From Corallococcus soli (GTDB lineage: Bacteria > Myxococcota > Myxococcia > Myxococcales > Myxococcaceae), in assembly GCF_014930455.1 (NCBI RefSeq), contig NZ_JAAIYO010000003.1, forward strand, positions 682,001 to 746,000: DNA of 64,000 bases, given 5' to 3'. The position numbers and the translations under genes are program-made. Below are positions 4,151 to 52,108 of the stretch, in pieces. The notes below the pieces were generated by a model. The model did not search any database, was not told the origin of the DNA, and saw only the letters and a list, made by a program, of their open reading frames with translations. The stretch's first letter is position 1. The number at the start of each line of letters is the position of its first letter.

Positions 4151-5248
4151 TCAGTCCCCGAAACCGATGCCCATGCTCCGCGCGAAACGCACCAGGTCCC
4201 CCTGGGGATCCACCCGGCGCTCCTTGCGCGACTCGCTCAAGGGAACGCTGACGATGTCGTTGTTCCTGAGCGCCACCATGTGCCCCCAATCACCATCCCG
4301 CACCAGATCCAACACCTTGCAGCCGTAGCGCGTCGCCAGCACGCGGTCCGCCGCGCTCGGGCTGCCACCGCGCTGCAGGTGGCCGAGCACCGTGACACGA
4401 ATCTCCGCGTCGATGTGGCTGGCGAGCAGATCCGCGCACACCTTGCCGGAGCCGCCCAGTCGCACCACGCCCCGGCCCGGGATGTCCGCCGCCTGCGCCA
4501 CCACCGACAGCACGCCGCCCTCCGGGTAGGCCCCCTCGGAGATGGCGATGATGGAGAAGCTGCGGCGGCGCGTGGCCCGGCGGCGCAGCGTCTCCAGCAC
4601 CGCCTCCACGCGGTATGGAATCTCCGGGATGAGGATGAGGTCCGCGCCGCCCGCGATGCCGCTCTCCAGCGTGAGGAAGCCCGCGTGCCGGCCCATGATC
4701 TCCACCACCATCACGCGGTCGTGGGACTCCGCGGTGGAGTGCAGTCGGTCCAGCGCCTCCGTGACGATGAGCCGCGCGGTGTCGAACCCGAACGTCTGAT
4801 CCGTGCCGGACAGATCATTGTCGATGGTCTTCGGACACCCGACGACCTTCAGCCCCTTCTCCGACAGCCGGTGCGCGATGGACAGCGTGCCGTCACCGCC
4901 AATGGCGATGAGTCCGTCCAGCGCCAGCTCCTGGCAGCGGCGCACCGCGTGGTCCGACAAGTCCCGCTCCACCCAGGCCGCGCCCTCACGCACCGGGTAG
5001 GCGAACGGGTTCGCCTTGTTGGACGTGCCCAGGATGGTGCCGCCCTTGGGCAGGATGCCGCGCGTGTCCTCCACGCCCAGCGGGCGGACGAGCTCCGGCT
5101 CCATCAGCCCCATGAAGCCGTTCTCGATGCCGACGAACGAGTGGCCGAATTCGTGGGCGCCCCGTCGGACGAGGCCCCGGATGAGCGCATTGAGTCCCGG
5201 GCAGTCGCCACCGCCGGTGAGGACTCCGAGTCGAAGAGGTCGGGTCAT
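4151..5248 (-). CDS. pfk: ATP-dependent 6-phosphofructokinase
   Basis: Phosphorylates fructose 6-phosphate to fructose 1,6-bisphosphate, the committing step of glycolysis. It has 365 residues. Diagnostic motifs are TGGGDCPGLN (11-20), GGTILGTSNKANPF (69-82), IGGDGT (116-121) and PKTIDND (139-145, catalytic Asp143). Gly120 and Lys140 correspond to E. coli positions 104 and 124. Gly at 104 indicates ATP as phosphoryl donor, while Lys at 124 is the variant seen in the actinobacterial/mixed-substrate clade and in PPi enzymes. It is the first gene of the pfk-pkn4 pair and has its own 154-bp upstream region. In M. xanthus the enzyme is activated by Pkn4 phosphorylation, linking glycogen use to development. 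Confidence 0.95.
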   Translation of the reverse strand: MTRPLRLGVLTGGGDCPGLNALIRGLVRRGAHEFGHSFVGIENGFMGLMEPELVRPLGVEDTRGILPKGGTILGTSNKANPFAYPVREGAAWVERDLSDHAVRRCQELALDGLIAIGGDGTLSIAHRLSEKGLKVVGCPKTIDNDLSGTDQTFGFDTARLIVTEALDRLHSTAESHDRVMVVEIMGRHAGFLTLESGIAGGADLILIPEIPYRVEAVLETLRRRATRRRSFSIIAISEGAYPEGGVLSVVAQAADIPGRGVVRLGGSGKVCADLLASHIDAEIRVTVLGHLQRGGSPSAADRVLATRYGCKVLDLVRDGDWGHMVALRNNDIVSVPLSESRKERRVDPQGDLVRFARSMGIGFGD

Positions 5249-44697: not shown

Positions 44698-44876
44698 ACC
44701 CCCGTCATTCCAGGTGGGAGTGACACCCGGGAAGGCACCTCTCCAGGGTTGTCAGGTTTTGAGAAGGCGAAGGCCCGTTTCGTCAAGAAAATGGGGGCGG
44801 AAAGTGCCGGGCCGGATTTGCGTCGGCCTGTAATTTTGTGGTTTGGAAGAGGCTCTGTACTCAACACGGAGTCTCC

Positions 44877-46676
44877 ATGTCCTTGTCTTTCCGGCACCTG
44901 CTGGCCCCTATGTCAGCGGTGCTGTTGCTGTTGTCCGCGTGCGGTGGTGATGACCCGAAGGATCCCGTCTGTGGCAACGGCATCGTCGAGAGCGGTGAAG
45001 CGTGCGACGACGGCAATCGCACCGAAGGCGATCGCTGCAACAACAGCTGCCAGATCACGACCCCGACGGTCGATGCAGGCACTGACGCCGGCGTGATCCC
45101 CGGCGACGATGCCGGCACCGACGCGGGCACCGAGACGGACGCCGGCACGGAGACGGACGCGGGCACGGAGACGGACGCGGGCACGGTCGACGCAGGCACC
45201 GGGACGGACGCGGGCACGGAGACGGACGCGGGCACGGAGACGGACGCGGGCACGGAGACGGACGCCGGCACGACGGTGGACGCGGGCACGGTCGACGCGG
45301 GCACCGGGACGGACGCGGGCACGGAGACGGACGCGGGCACGGAGACGGACGCCGGCACGGAGACGGATGCCGGCACGGATGCTGGCACCGAGACGGACGC
45401 GGGCACGGACGCCGGTACGGAGACGGACGGCGGCATCGACGCGGGTCCTGCTCCGGATGCGGGCACGGAGACGGATGGCGGCACGACGGACGCGGGCCCC
45501 GTGACGCTCACCGCGCTGGAGCCGGCCGCGACCTTCGCGCGCTCGGGCACCACGGGTGAGACGATTCCGGAGTCCCTGGAAGTGACGCTGAGCACCTCGT
45601 CCGACACGGCCGTGGTGGTGCAGGTCACCTCGTCCAGCCCCTCGGTCACCGTGGCCAACAACGGCCAGGTGGTGGTCCCGGCGGGTGCTCGTTCGGCGGC
45701 GGTCATCGTGACGGCGGACGCGGCGGCCGGTGCGGCCAAGGCGACGCTGACGGCCACGCTGGGCGCGGAGGTTCGCGCGGCCACGGTGCGCGTCCTCGGC
45801 GAGACGGAGGCGGCCTCGCTGGCGCTCCTGTCGCCGGAGACGGTGGAAGTGGCCCCGGGCAAGACGGTCAACCTCACCGTGACGCTCGACGTGCCGCCCG
45901 CGGCGGACACGATCATCACGCTCTCCACGACGGGTGACGTGGGCACGGTGCCCACGTCCGTGACGGTGCCGGCCAACGAGATCTCCGCGAAGTTCGCCCT
46001 CACGGGCGGCACGGCCGGAGCGACGGGCACGGTGGTCGCCACTCTCGGTGCCCAGTCCGTCTCCGCGCAGGCGAAGGTCACCTCCGAGCCCACGACGAAC
46101 CACATCGTCATCAGCGAGGTCGCGGCGGGCGGCACCGGAGGCGCGAACGACGAGTTCGTCGAGCTCTACAACCCGACGAACGCGGAAGTGAACATCGGTG
46201 GCTGGAGGATCCAGTACAAGAGCGCCACGGGTACCAGCTACACCGGCAACTTCGTTCTGCCGGCGAGCGCCCGCATCGCGGCCCACGGCTTCTACCTGGT
46301 GGCCAATGGCAGCTACGCGGGCACCGTCACCCCGGACGCGAACTGGGCCGGGGCCATCTCCATGGGCGCCAATGGTGGGCACGTGCGAGTGGGCCCCGCG
46401 AACCTCACCACCAGCACCACGGATGCGAACGCCGTGGACACGCTGGGCTGGGGCACCACGGCGAACGCGGCGGAGGGCAGCCCCATCCTCAGCATTCCCG
46501 CCACGGCCGGCAGCTTCGAGCGCATTGCCAACGCCGGGGCCTCCGCCGCCACCATGGAGAGCGGCGCGGACGCGGCGAAGGGCAACAGCTACGACACGAA
46601 CGTGAACAGCGCGGACTTCATCATCCGCACCACGCGCGGGCCGCAGAACAAGGCGAGCGGCACCGAACAGCCGTGA
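44877..46676 (+). CDS. lipoprotein with DAGT linker and lamin-tail domain
   Basis: A 599-residue lipoprotein; ATG 44877 is chosen over an upstream in-frame ATG because it gives the signal peptide (SLSFRHLLAPMSAVLLLLSAC, Cys20 lipobox LSAC). Order: a Cys-rich motif (CGNGIVESGEACDDGN, a myxobacterial Cys-rich repeat), a long low-complexity DAGTETDAGT linker (DNA 45080-45500), two or so beta-rich Ig-like domains (SLEVTLSTSSD, VTLDVPPAAD), and a C-terminal lamin-tail domain (ISEVAAGGTGG-NDEFVELYNP). The last suggests a secreted adhesin or nuclease-associated domain. The linker codes for a tandem repeat of about 18 bp. Confidence 0.85.
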   Translation: MSLSFRHLLAPMSAVLLLLSACGGDDPKDPVCGNGIVESGEACDDGNRTEGDRCNNSCQITTPTVDAGTDAGVIPGDDAGTDAGTETDAGTETDAGTETDAGTVDAGTGTDAGTETDAGTETDAGTETDAGTTVDAGTVDAGTGTDAGTETDAGTETDAGTETDAGTDAGTETDAGTDAGTETDGGIDAGPAPDAGTETDGGTTDAGPVTLTALEPAATFARSGTTGETIPESLEVTLSTSSDTAVVVQVTSSSPSVTVANNGQVVVPAGARSAAVIVTADAAAGAAKATLTATLGAEVRAATVRVLGETEAASLALLSPETVEVAPGKTVNLTVTLDVPPAADTIITLSTTGDVGTVPTSVTVPANEISAKFALTGGTAGATGTVVATLGAQSVSAQAKVTSEPTTNHIVISEVAAGGTGGANDEFVELYNPTNAEVNIGGWRIQYKSATGTSYTGNFVLPASARIAAHGFYLVANGSYAGTVTPDANWAGAISMGANGGHVRVGPANLTTSTTDANAVDTLGWGTTANAAEGSPILSIPATAGSFERIANAGASAATMESGADAAKGNSYDTNVNSADFIIRTTRGPQNKASGTEQP

Positions 46677-48356: not shown

Positions 48357-48499
48357 GCGACCGGCGGATCGGTGCATGCTGTTGGGCACTGAGCGATTCC
48401 TAGATTGTTGCTCCTTTCAAATGTGACTGGACTATGGAGTCCCCAGGACCGGCATCCACGGCCCTGACCGGCGCGTGACGCCCAGGAAGGAAGCATGTG

Positions 48500-50062
48500 A
48501 TGGGTCTGGAAGGTCCACGTGACGAGCAGCGGGTGGCCACCGGCATCCCTGGGCTCGACACGGTGCTTTGTGGCGGCCTGCGCAAGGGGCGCATGTACAT
48601 GGTCCTGGGGCTGCCGGGCGCGGGGAAGACCATCCTCGCCAACCAGGTCTGCTTCCACCAGGCGACCCAGGGCTGCCGGATCCTCTACCTCACGCTCCTG
48701 GCTGAATCGCACACGGAGCTGGTGCGCAACCTCCAGACGCTGTCCTTCTTCGACCCGGCCTGCGTGCCCGGGAGCATCAGCTACCTGAGCGCCTTCACCA
48801 CCCTGGAGCAGGGGGGCCTGGACGCGCTCGCGGAGCTGATCCGCAAGGAGATCAAGGCGCACAAGGCCTCGCTGCTGGTGCTGGACGGCCTGCTGGCCGC
48901 GGAGGAGCTGGCCCCGTCGCGCCAAGCGCTCAAGAAGTTCATCCACGGCCTCCAGGTGGTGACCAGCCTCATCGGCTGCACCACGCTGGTGCTCACCACC
49001 GGGGGCGAGAAGGGCCTGCGCGCCGAGCACACGATGGTGGATGGGCTCATCCTGCTCCAGCAGCGCACCTTCGGCGTGCGCACCCTGCGCGAGCTGAGCG
49101 TGCGCAAGTTCCGGGGCAGCGCCTACAAGATGGGCCAGCACGGCTTTGAGATCACCGGCGACGGGCTCATCGTCTATCCCCGCCTGGAGTCCATGGTGGA
49201 CGGGCACCTGGTGCCCGGCGCGGGGACGCGCGAGCGGGATGCCTTCGGGGTGCCCGGCCTGGACACGATGCTGCTGGGCGGCGTGCCCGCGGGCTCCACC
49301 ACCATCCTCCTGGGCCCTCCCGGCAGTGGAAAGACCCTGCTGGGCCTGAGCTTCCTGGCGGAAGGGGCCCGTCGGGGTGAGCGCGGCCACTACTTCGCCT
49401 TCTATGACGCGCCGGAGCGCATGCTCGCCCAGGCGGCGGGCGTGGGCCTGCACTTGCAGCCCCTGATGGAGCGGGGCGACCTGGAGGTGAGCTTCCGGCC
49501 GCCCACGGAGAACGTCCTCGACAAGCTGGGCACGGAGCTGCTCACCACCATCCGCAGCGGGAGGGTGCGCCGCATCTTCCTGGATGGGTATGAGGCGCTG
49601 CGTCGCGCGTCGACCCGCCACACCCGGGTGGCGCGCTTCCTGGCGGCGCTCGTCAACGAGTGCCGGGTGCGCGAGGTGACGCTCGTCTACACGGCCGAGT
49701 CCACCAGCGCCTTCGGTCCGGAGGTGAAGTTCCCGCTCAAGGGCATCTCCATGGTGGCGGAGAACATCCTGTTCCTGCGCCTGGTGGAGTTGCACGCCGG
49801 GCTGCGCCGCTTCGTCACGGTGCTGAAGGTGCGCAACAGCGACTACGACCCTTCGCTGCGGGAGTTGCACATCACGGGCAAGGGGCTCCGGGTGGGCAAG
49901 CCCTTCGCGGAGGGCCAGATGTTGATGACGGGCCTCGCGCGCACGCGCACGCCGGAAACGACGTCCCCTCCGAAGCCGCGCCGGAGCGTCCGCAAGCGCG
50001 CGGCGACCCAGGCAGCCCCCTCGAAGCCACGCCGGAACGTCAGCAAGCGCCGAGGGACCTGA
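48500..50062 (+). CDS. double KaiC-domain ATPase
   Basis: A 520-residue protein with two RecA/KaiC-type domains. ATG 48500 follows GGAAGGAAG. Domain 1: Walker A GLPGAGKT (37-44), Walker B LLVLDG (125-130). Domain 2: Walker A GPPGSGKT (272-279). The domain ends contain the KaiC-type stretch YKMGQHGFEITGDG. A basic, Pro/Ala-rich tail closes the protein (KPRRSVRKRAA and KPRRNVSKR). No KaiA or KaiB is present, so it is a KaiC-like signalling or RecA-like ATPase of unknown role rather than a clock. It is followed 2 bp later by a stand-alone response-regulator receiver gene, suggesting phosphosignal control. Confidence 0.88.
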   Translation: MGLEGPRDEQRVATGIPGLDTVLCGGLRKGRMYMVLGLPGAGKTILANQVCFHQATQGCRILYLTLLAESHTELVRNLQTLSFFDPACVPGSISYLSAFTTLEQGGLDALAELIRKEIKAHKASLLVLDGLLAAEELAPSRQALKKFIHGLQVVTSLIGCTTLVLTTGGEKGLRAEHTMVDGLILLQQRTFGVRTLRELSVRKFRGSAYKMGQHGFEITGDGLIVYPRLESMVDGHLVPGAGTRERDAFGVPGLDTMLLGGVPAGSTTILLGPPGSGKTLLGLSFLAEGARRGERGHYFAFYDAPERMLAQAAGVGLHLQPLMERGDLEVSFRPPTENVLDKLGTELLTTIRSGRVRRIFLDGYEALRRASTRHTRVARFLAALVNECRVREVTLVYTAESTSAFGPEVKFPLKGISMVAENILFLRLVELHAGLRRFVTVLKVRNSDYDPSLRELHITGKGLRVGKPFAEGQMLMTGLARTRTPETTSPPKPRRSVRKRAATQAAPSKPRRNVSKRRGT

Positions 50063-50064
50063 CC

Positions 50065-50430
50065 ATGGGTCCCGTCCTCATCGTCGACGACGAGTTCGGC
50101 ATCGTGGAGGCCGTCCGCGACCTGTTATCGGACGAGGGCTACCGCGTCGCCACCGCCCTCAACGGCCGAGAGGCCCTGGAGCGGATGGCGCGGGAGCGCC
50201 CGTCGATGGTGCTGCTGGACTACATGATGCCGCTGCTCAACGGCCCGGGCGTGCTGGAGGCGATGCAGCGCGACCCCGTCCTGCGGGATGTCCCGGTCGT
50301 GATGATGAGCGCCAGTCCCCCGGAGTTCTGGCAGCACCTGCCGTGCGCGGGCTTCCTGCCCAAGCCCTTCGACATCGACCAGCTGCTCGCCACGGTCCGC
50401 CAGATCGTCGGCGGCCCGCCGCTGCACTGA
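50065..50430 (+). CDS. single-domain response regulator
   Basis: A 121-residue CheY-like receiver: acid pocket Asp8-Asp9, phosphoacceptor Asp52 in LLDYMMP, Ser82 (MMSASP) and Lys100 in LPKPFD. It has no output domain. It begins 2 bp after the KaiC-like gene, so the two are co-translated; it may gate the ATPase or take its signal to another partner. A histidine kinase is not encoded nearby. Confidence 0.92.
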   Translation: MGPVLIVDDEFGIVEAVRDLLSDEGYRVATALNGREALERMARERPSMVLLDYMMPLLNGPGVLEAMQRDPVLRDVPVVMMSASPPEFWQHLPCAGFLPKPFDIDQLLATVRQIVGGPPLH

Positions 50431-51346: not shown

Positions 51347-52108
51347 ATGAATCGCAACAAGCGTTTCGCGTGGACGTGGGCGGCTGCCGGAGTTTTCGCG
51401 GTCGCGGGGCTCATTGGCGCATGTGACCCGGAAGAGACGGACAAGCCGACGCCCACGGCCGACGCCGGGACCCAGGCGGACGCTGGCAGCACCGCCGACG
51501 CGGGCGGCAACACGGACGCGGGCGGCACCACCGACGCGGGCTCCACGACGGATGCCGGCACGCAGGTGGATGCCGGCACGGACGCGGGCACGGAGACGGA
51601 CGCGGGCGTCGACGCGGGTCCGCAGTCCGCGTTCCCCCTGGCCGTGGACGGCAACTGGGCGCCCAGTGGGTACATGGGTGACGGCGACGGCATCACGACC
51701 GAGCCCACCTGCCACACGCCGCGTCCTGGCGCGGGGCTGGGCGCTTGCCACAAGTTCACCCTGACCAAGAAGGCCCAGGGCTGGGGCGGCGTCTACTGGC
51801 ACTTCCCGGAAGGCAACTGGGGCGACAAGGAAGGCTTCGCTGTCCCGGCGGGCGCGAAGTCGGTGTCCTTCTATGCCTGGGGCGCCGAGGGCGGAGAGGC
51901 CATCGGCTTCTTCGTGGGCAACGGCCAGAAGACCTTGGACAAGTTCAAGATCGAGACGGGCGACATCGTCCTGAACGCGGTGCCCACGCGCTACACGATC
52001 GACATCAGCATCATCAACTACGGCAATGTCAGCGGAGGCTTCGGCTGGTCGGCGGCCGGCAAGGACGTGCCGGTCGTGTTCTTCCTCGACGACATCCAGT
52101 GGCACTGA
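51347..52108 (+). CDS. lipoprotein with DAGT linker and beta-sandwich carbohydrate-binding-like domain
   Basis: A 253-residue lipoprotein. Signal peptide ends in a lipobox-like IGAC (Cys26). Residues about 30-90 are a TDAGT-rich flexible linker. The mature globular part (about 95-253) is beta-rich and aromatic, with two cysteines and the WHFPEGNWGDKEGFAVPAG and VVFFLDDIQWH stretches. It resembles carbohydrate-binding modules of the CBM11-like kind, ending in a DDIQ-type strand. It precedes the ROK regulator by 53 bp and probably tethers glucan at the outer membrane for the following enzymes. Confidence 0.75.
   Translation: MNRNKRFAWTWAAAGVFAVAGLIGACDPEETDKPTPTADAGTQADAGSTADAGGNTDAGGTTDAGSTTDAGTQVDAGTDAGTETDAGVDAGPQSAFPLAVDGNWAPSGYMGDGDGITTEPTCHTPRPGAGLGACHKFTLTKKAQGWGGVYWHFPEGNWGDKEGFAVPAGAKSVSFYAWGAEGGEAIGFFVGNGQKTLDKFKIETGDIVLNAVPTRYTIDISIINYGNVSGGFGWSAAGKDVPVVFFLDDIQWH

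Follow-up and report, generated by a model that had tools for sequence, protein, structure and literature searches.

What is the role of a double-domain KaiC homolog whose immediate neighbor is a stand-alone receiver (REC)? KaiC homologs are spread through bacteria without a known clock. The question is raised by a kaiC-like gene and a receiver gene of Corallococcus soli, located in a window of 64,000 nucleotides (the whole stretch of DNA that was analysed). The initial annotation had read the two genes as a signaling switch outside of any clock, in which the receiver gates the state of the ATPase, with a possible link to the timing of development. The features of the pair are collected in Table 1.

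Table 1. Features of the kaiC-REC pair, in window coordinates
Feature	Position	Strand	Evidence
kaiC-like gene, two KaiC/RecA ATPase domains, 520 aa	48500..50062	+	ORF; PF06745 in two stretches; AlphaFold model
CI domain, residues 12-229	48533..49186	+	PF06745 match
CI Walker A GLPGAGKT, residues 37-44	48608..48631	+	Alignment
CI motif TLLAESH, residues 65-71, place of KaiC Glu77/Glu78	48692..48712	+	Alignment
CII domain, residues 250-467	49247..49900	+	PF06745 match
CII Walker A GPPGSGKT, residues 272-279	49313..49336	+	Alignment
CII Tyr302-Asp303, place of KaiC Glu318-Glu319	49403..49408	+	Alignment
Ser417-Met418, place of KaiC phospho-sites Ser431-Thr432	49748..49753	+	Alignment
Basic C-terminal tail, residues 486-520, net charge +11	49955..50059	+	Charge; genus comparison; model
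Gap, kaiC stop to REC ATG, 2 bp	50063..50064	+	ORF coordinates
Stand-alone receiver (REC) gene, 121 aa	50065..50430	+	PF00072; conserved D8 D9, S82, K100
REC phospho-acceptor Asp52	50218..50220	+	Asp in 177/177 aligned paired RECs

The kaiC-like reading frame runs from the ATG at 48500 to a stop codon ending at 50062, with an alternative GTG start at 48497. According to Pfam, its product matches PF06745 (KaiC ATPase) in two stretches, encoded at C3:730533-731186 and C3:731247-731900 in contig coordinates (200.7 bits against a cut-off of 26.6), and the Walker A lysine and Walker B aspartate present in both domains place it among the double-domain KaiC-like ATPases. Within the CI Walker A motif, G37, P39, G40, G42, K43, and T44 are invariant in 14 aligned rows. 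Further along CI, the second glutamate (Glu78 place) is kept and the first (Glu77 place) is an alanine by alignment, the exact register of Glu77 being uncertain because the window protein has one inserted residue. The CII domain has lost the kinase base (Tyr302) and kept the metal-binding acid (Asp303). An AlphaFold model based on a 39-row alignment (pLDDT 85.6, pTM 0.81) has KaiC chains as its best PDB matches in the Foldseek list, for instance 8zn5_F (Z 36.0, rmsd 3.9 over 421 residues) and 8db3_A (Z 35.8, rmsd 3.1 over 415 residues); as modeled, the window protein has the KaiC fold.

The downstream protein matches PF00072 (Response_reg) over residues 4-111 of 121, with 75.5 bits against a cut-off of 30.2, and an output domain is absent, making it a single-domain response regulator. 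Its phosphorylation residues are intact (the acidic pair D8 D9, D52, S82, and K100). Across the paired receivers aligned, Asp9, Glu10, Asp52, and Lys100 are kept in 177/177, position 82 is Ser or Thr in 175/177, and the protein ends no more than 10 residues past the REC domain in 175/177; because the paired receivers stop so close after this domain, their output must be protein-protein. A two-domain KaiC-like ATPase (PF06745 in two stretches) and a stand-alone receiver (PF00072) are thus encoded as first annotated, both on the + strand, and the gap of 2 bp reported then is exact, with kaiC ending at 50062 and REC beginning at 50065. Fifteen of the 16 genus members have this 2-bp gap, and the last one has 3 bp. 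Among 177 pairs, with start codons picked by script, a 4-bp overlap occurs in 50, a gap of 2 bp in 47, and a spacing of at most 35 bp in 173. Such tight spacing suggests coupled translation.

The genome has four double KaiCs, one in the window pair on contig C3 and the others on C1, C10, and C17, and all four are followed by a REC or a REC-histidine-kinase gene. The C1 and C10 KaiCs have a REC gene next, the latter with a REC-histidine-kinase gene just upstream as well, and the C17 KaiC has a REC-histidine-kinase gene after it. Receiver matches in this genome number at least 150. When it was searched with a profile of KaiC-linked receivers, the three KaiC-linked RECs ranked first, a ranking that is no independent evidence as these three were members of the profile. 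The best match after them (147.8 bits) is a receiver at C1:157909-158262 (locus L262); its 3.4-kb locus shows no KaiC, and it is perhaps an orphaned partner. The C10 cluster at L040:4691-8575 is made up of REC-histidine kinase, kaiC, REC, and, beyond these, a divergent receiver-like protein (4691-5077) in which the usual acceptor motif is absent at first sight. In C1-type loci, a third gene of about 273 aa follows kaiC-REC (L041:8273-9091 in this genome). Its products are 272-273 aa long with only a sub-threshold DUF7309 match, and it is found in 17 loci with REC. One neighbor gene product at the C1 locus of this genome is 91.6% identical to that of a Corallococcus praedator locus.

A KaiC relative at E ≤ 1e-20 occurs in 94/145 genomes of the order, and in the 30 best relatives, one per genome, a receiver adjoins kaiC in all. 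A scan of named species with two motifs, taken as the best 80 of 363 confirmed loci and therefore favoring close relatives, found REC directly downstream in 80/80, which belong to Myxococcota as well as to the alpha-, beta-, and gammaproteobacteria. Both sets together give 148/148 KaiC frames with REC, copies included and the REC-histidine kinase of C17 counted. The sample was then extended by lower-scoring relatives and further paralogs, the loci being chosen by KaiC similarity, never by neighbor, and the paralogs hand-picked among the matches listed. From 218 loci, 215 KaiC frames passed (L206, L208, and L213, with partial or split matches, were left out), and removal of 12 identical copies left 203 distinct double-KaiC genes. 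REC follows in 178 (Myxococcota and Pseudomonadota), which amount to 84 effective sequences at 80% identity for the KaiC-REC set. Among the other 25, the C17 gene precedes a REC-kinase and 24 precede neither, with a histidine kinase downstream in 12 and nothing by the distance rule in 12, including L214, which is counted as having none by this rule though a kinase frame is present there. L190 was relabeled by hand from none to REC, as the KaiC frame of this locus extends across an evident REC frame, and was omitted from the mirror-tree and REC-residue counts, which leaves 177.

The surroundings of the pair are far less constant. In the same-genus genome G059, the neighborhood is mostly kept (10/11 window queries). 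Outside the genus, nine orthologous loci of 17-18 kb, taken from four genera, have kaiC and REC together in 9/9, and not one of nine flanking window genes remains next to them; two acyltransferase matches (38-40%) lie more than 5 kb off. Mere regional synteny was therefore rejected, since in other genera kaiC-REC stays but the flanking genes do not, and chance adjacency was rejected on the 178/203 genes with REC and the nine loci of other genera. With these counts, the functional linkage proposed at the outset is very strongly supported by co-occurrence in related genomes. In the window itself, the region is flanked within 6 kb by two lipoprotein-like genes (44838-46676 and 51347-52108), both carrying long low-complexity repeats of the TDAG type.

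Receivers also keep to their own KaiC paralog. In a mirror-tree of 63 paralogs from 21 genomes, KaiC and REC distances correlate with r 0.88, and shuffles within genomes averaged 0.11 and peaked at 0.37, with 0/2000 as high as the observed value. Tight linkage alone can give both co-inheritance and a coefficient of this size. When distances are compared only inside individual genomes, those of KaiC and REC show a weak correlation (Spearman 0.19, p 0.12, 70 pairs). A single KaiC-REC fusion frame was considered and rejected, as no frame matched both domains in two locus class lists; the KaiC frame of L196, outside the REC-linked branch described below, has a weak REC match of 26 bits. Two of the 12 genes with nothing downstream by the distance rule are of the REC-branch type, namely L234, placed inside the branch by the tree below, and L247, which has the same residues and gene order. 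These loci are without REC and keep the third gene of their locus type, so that REC is dispensable.

A quick tree was built from 79 representatives (clustered at 72% identity) and a designed KaiC, and it carried long-branch warnings. A single branch (SH-aLRT 98) holds all 58 REC-linked representatives, C17 included; L234 lies within it and represents a loss. The REC label needs 2 changes on this tree vs 18.8 when shuffled, and the presence or absence of an acid at the Glu318 place also needs 2. The C17 gene, with its REC-kinase partner, splits off first on a long branch that makes its placement unsure; such an order would agree with a stepwise path, with KaiC-HK first, KaiC-REC-HK next, and KaiC-REC last. 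Since REC linkage and base loss map to about one and the same branch, their correlation amounts to a single event.

In Synechococcus elongatus KaiC, E318 is described as activating Thr432 and Ser431, and E319 as contributing to Mg binding (PMC2777353). The E318A protein was without phosphoryl transfer, as judged from gels, and E318A and E318D were both arhythmic (PMC2777353). An acid at this place is found in 0/178 REC-linked KaiCs, which have Tyr in 156, Phe in 7, Met in 4, His, Gln, and Val in 2 each, and Trp, Asn, Ser, Ala, and Thr in one each; the Glu319 place is always acidic (Glu 137, Asp 41). Outside the branch, Asp or Glu occupies the Glu318 place in 21/22 KaiCs, or 21/24 with the partial genes L206 and L213. 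The sole exception among the 22, L207, has Gln, as do the dropped partial genes L206, L208, and L213. According to the alignment, this CII change alone marks the branch, yet it is not wholly private, given the Gln of L206, L207, and L213. These three histidine-kinase-linked genes outside the branch may have lost the base independently; a receiver frame lies upstream of kaiC in L206 and L207. Loss of the first CI glutamate was rejected as a mark of the branch, since Ser, Gly, or Leu stands there in outside relatives too. The branch differs from its relatives at N48, H71, S97, G106, G130, E230, and other positions, which formed no interpretable surface when compared without coordinates. In the REC-linked genes, both domains retain the Lys of Walker A and the Asp of Walker B, apart from one row gapped at the CI Lys. 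Because catalytic residues are substituted, the ATPase turnover of the window KaiC appears in doubt; the CI site may still hydrolyse ATP. In S. elongatus, an E77Q/E78Q double mutant has 22% of its ATPase left (PMC5007536).

From two adjacent genes that are inherited together, a CII domain without its base, and an intact receiver, all read from sequence, and from the KaiC fold of the model, we propose with moderate confidence a dedicated two-protein switch, in which phosphorylated REC would dock on a KaiC ring and set its state. The KaiC-like protein would form a KaiC-type double ring that binds ATP at each of its two Walker A motifs; having lost the CII general base, this ring would not run a clock-type Ser/Thr autokinase cycle, and the phosphorylation input would be placed on Asp52 of the partner receiver. 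Asp52 would be charged by a histidine kinase, encoded beside the pair in some relatives and presumably elsewhere in this genome. Phospho-REC could then dock on the ring and select a nucleotide or conformational state, which the ring with its basic tail would relay to a target. The hexamer, the direct docking, the direction of signaling, the kinase, and the target are putative parts of this scheme. As the base is lost in 178/178 KaiCs and the acceptor aspartate kept in 177/177 receivers, the site of the phospho-switch seems to have shifted from KaiC to the receiver. For an ATP-binding ring without a kinase base and a near-constant, phosphorylatable receiver without output domain, a switch bound by phospho-REC would be the simplest account, and gating by the receiver is plausible. 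A precedent by analogy for a REC acting on a partner protein is found in Myxococcus xanthus, in which the phosphorylated single-domain receiver EpsW has a stimulating effect on the enzyme EpsZ, apparently through a direct interaction (PMC12802240).

The receiver could also be the output instead of the input. A histidine kinase gene stands directly upstream of 50/178 pairs (gammaproteobacterial 16/37, alphaproteobacterial 11/27, betaproteobacterial 0/1, other Pseudomonadota 1/1, myxobacterial 22/112), a count that is rough and probably low, as kinases were detected with two myxobacterial kinase queries and overlapping frames were allowed. Outside the branch, 12/22 KaiCs are followed by a histidine kinase gene without a stand-alone REC, and these kinases are partly hybrid, the kinase frames of L210 and L215-L218 having a REC match of 31-48 bits. 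The partial loci are similar, with kinase and receiver frames near L206, a kinase at L213, and a REC-histidine-kinase gene downstream of kaiC at L208. Because of these kinases upstream of the pairs and downstream of the outside relatives, the main rival of a receiver-gated switch is the reverse arrow, whereby KaiC as a scaffold or allosteric regulator would tune the phosphorylation of REC by a histidine kinase and REC would carry the output. Clock KaiC acts through SasA on RpaA. The REC-histidine kinase after the C17 KaiC, the deepest branch member in the genome, is also consistent with this arrangement. Against it, the receiver has no output domain, and no same-strand kinase lies directly upstream of the window pair or of the window-type loci compared, one of which, L046, carries a kinase gene some 0.8 kb off on the opposite strand. 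The co-occurrence search for a cognate histidine kinase, suggested at the outset, thus gave a directly upstream kinase gene in 50/178 related pairs and in none of the window-type loci compared. Overall, the reverse arrow is possible, if somewhat unlikely.

A further candidate function comes from the tail of the window KaiC, whose 35 residues carry a net charge of +11 and are modeled with low confidence (block pLDDT 45-51). A basic tail is found in 16/16 genus members and, as a long one, in the C10 paralog, and with the RecA superfamily membership of KaiC this could point to a nucleic-acid or nucleoid-associated ATPase that binds DNA or RNA through its tail, with REC governing its loading. The tails are, however, much shorter in the alignment of four window-type orthologs from other genera, and the last 35 residues of REC-linked genes have a median net charge of only +1, so that a long basic tail was rejected as a feature of the whole branch. 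No DNA-binding domain was found by Pfam either, and we regard this function as quite improbable.

The fold could also recall a timer. Searches of the whole assembly (9.44 Mb, 68 contigs) for KaiB (PF07689) and KaiA (PF07688) gave no match at E ≤ 0.001, with the Synechococcus elongatus control positive in both; the absence of KaiA and KaiB first remarked at the locus therefore holds across the assembly, and the partner proteins of a KaiABC or KaiBC clock or hourglass are thus undetected. The window KaiC scores 115.4 bits against the circadian clock KaiC equivalog TIGR02655 (cut-off 546.25) and 206.1 bits against PRK09302 (cut-off 408), and the catalytic and phospho-sites of clock KaiC are replaced in part, by Tyr302 for Glu318 and by Ser417/Met418 for Ser431/Thr432. 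A clock reading was rejected on the absence of KaiA and KaiB from the assembly and the loss of the CII base, and a clock role for the pair is unlikely, which bears out the non-clock character originally proposed. A reduced timer, that is, a slow hourglass of KaiC phosphorylation or ATPase, entrained by REC in place of KaiA/KaiB and perhaps timing fruiting, would draw on the predicted KaiC fold, on Ser417 at the Ser431 place, and on a possible time-measuring mechanism proposed in PMC11832031 from the rhythmic fruiting rings of M. macrosporus. It is very unlikely in view of the CII base missing in 178/178, the Met at the Thr432 place, the undetected KaiA and KaiB, and scores far below the KaiC equivalog cut-offs. 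The suggested link to developmental timing found no support, as nothing found near the pair points to development.

Least probable of all are co-transcribed neighbors without direct contact, with REC as, for example, a phosphate sink for distant kinases, for which the two loci that keep KaiC without REC would speak, and against which stands a pair that spans two phyla and is the only conserved unit in the other-genus loci compared.

The receiver-gated switch thus leads the readings considered here. An evolutionary extension of it is offered tentatively and is rather unlikely as a whole: one ancestral KaiC lineage would have outsourced its phospho-switch, with a receiver fixed beside it and the CII autokinase base lost, so that aspartyl phosphorylation of REC replaced Ser/Thr phosphorylation together with KaiA/KaiB. 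If this extension holds, a phosphorylatable receiver would be a third kind of ligand of the KaiC ring, besides KaiB/SasA and KaiA. The branch would offer a direct, testable input for KaiC proteins and link two-component signaling with the ring that they form. A further prediction from the branch is which KaiC homologs not to interpret as clocks, in annotation and in rhythm studies of myxobacteria and pseudomonads.

Compared with the cyanobacterial KaiABC clock (TIGR02655/PRK09302), the window protein shares the double RecA-like architecture, the fold, and Walker A and B motifs in both domains. It differs in that KaiA and KaiB are undetected, the CII base and Thr432 are absent, and the partner is a phosphorylatable receiver. 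KaiA and CikA are reported to carry pseudo-receivers (PMC12632262), which, were the evolutionary extension above correct, would echo this wiring. Like the pair described here, KaiC-REC fusions of Methanosarcinaceae couple a KaiC ATPase to a REC domain; these are described as confined to six archaeal genera (PMC5847659), whereas here the genes are separate and bacterial. EpsW-EpsZ of M. xanthus shares the single-domain REC and its post-translational action on a partner enzyme, but EpsZ is a phosphoglycosyl transferase unrelated to KaiC (PMC12802240).

Closer relatives are known. The myxobacterial KaiC homologs treated in PMC11832031 belong to the same family and order as the window KaiC; they are described as having no kaiA, few kaiB, partly missing phospho-sites, and no KaiB-binding loop. 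In the main text of that paper the word "receiver" is absent and "response regulator" occurs twice, and none of 12 of its 15 passages ties one to kaiC. KaiC-like proteins of Pseudomonas, cited for roles in stress resistance and biofilm (Terrettaz et al., 2023), possibly belong to the same branch, as the P. putida loci L154 and L157 are kaiC-REC. A statement of a single REC-coupled branch, or of its CII base loss, was not found in the literature searched, a scope that ends short of Terrettaz et al. (2023) and the archaeal hub paper.

A frequent receiver gene downstream of kaiC has been on record since 2011, when the genome paper of Ramlibacter tataouinensis reported it for one kaiC group (PMC3164672). 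The window kaiC, with a receiver gene next, kaiB undetected, and at most one phospho-site, falls in the third kaiC context of that paper and not in the second, kaiC-HK, as REC rather than a histidine kinase follows. The third context, or "black group," likewise has a receiver gene after kaiC and mostly no more than one phospho-site, in a less conserved context, and was described as more diverse, from a limited set (PMC3164672). Relative to this group, the present analysis resolves one REC-coupled branch across two phyla, its loss of the CII base, and its histidine-kinase and REC-histidine-kinase arrangements.
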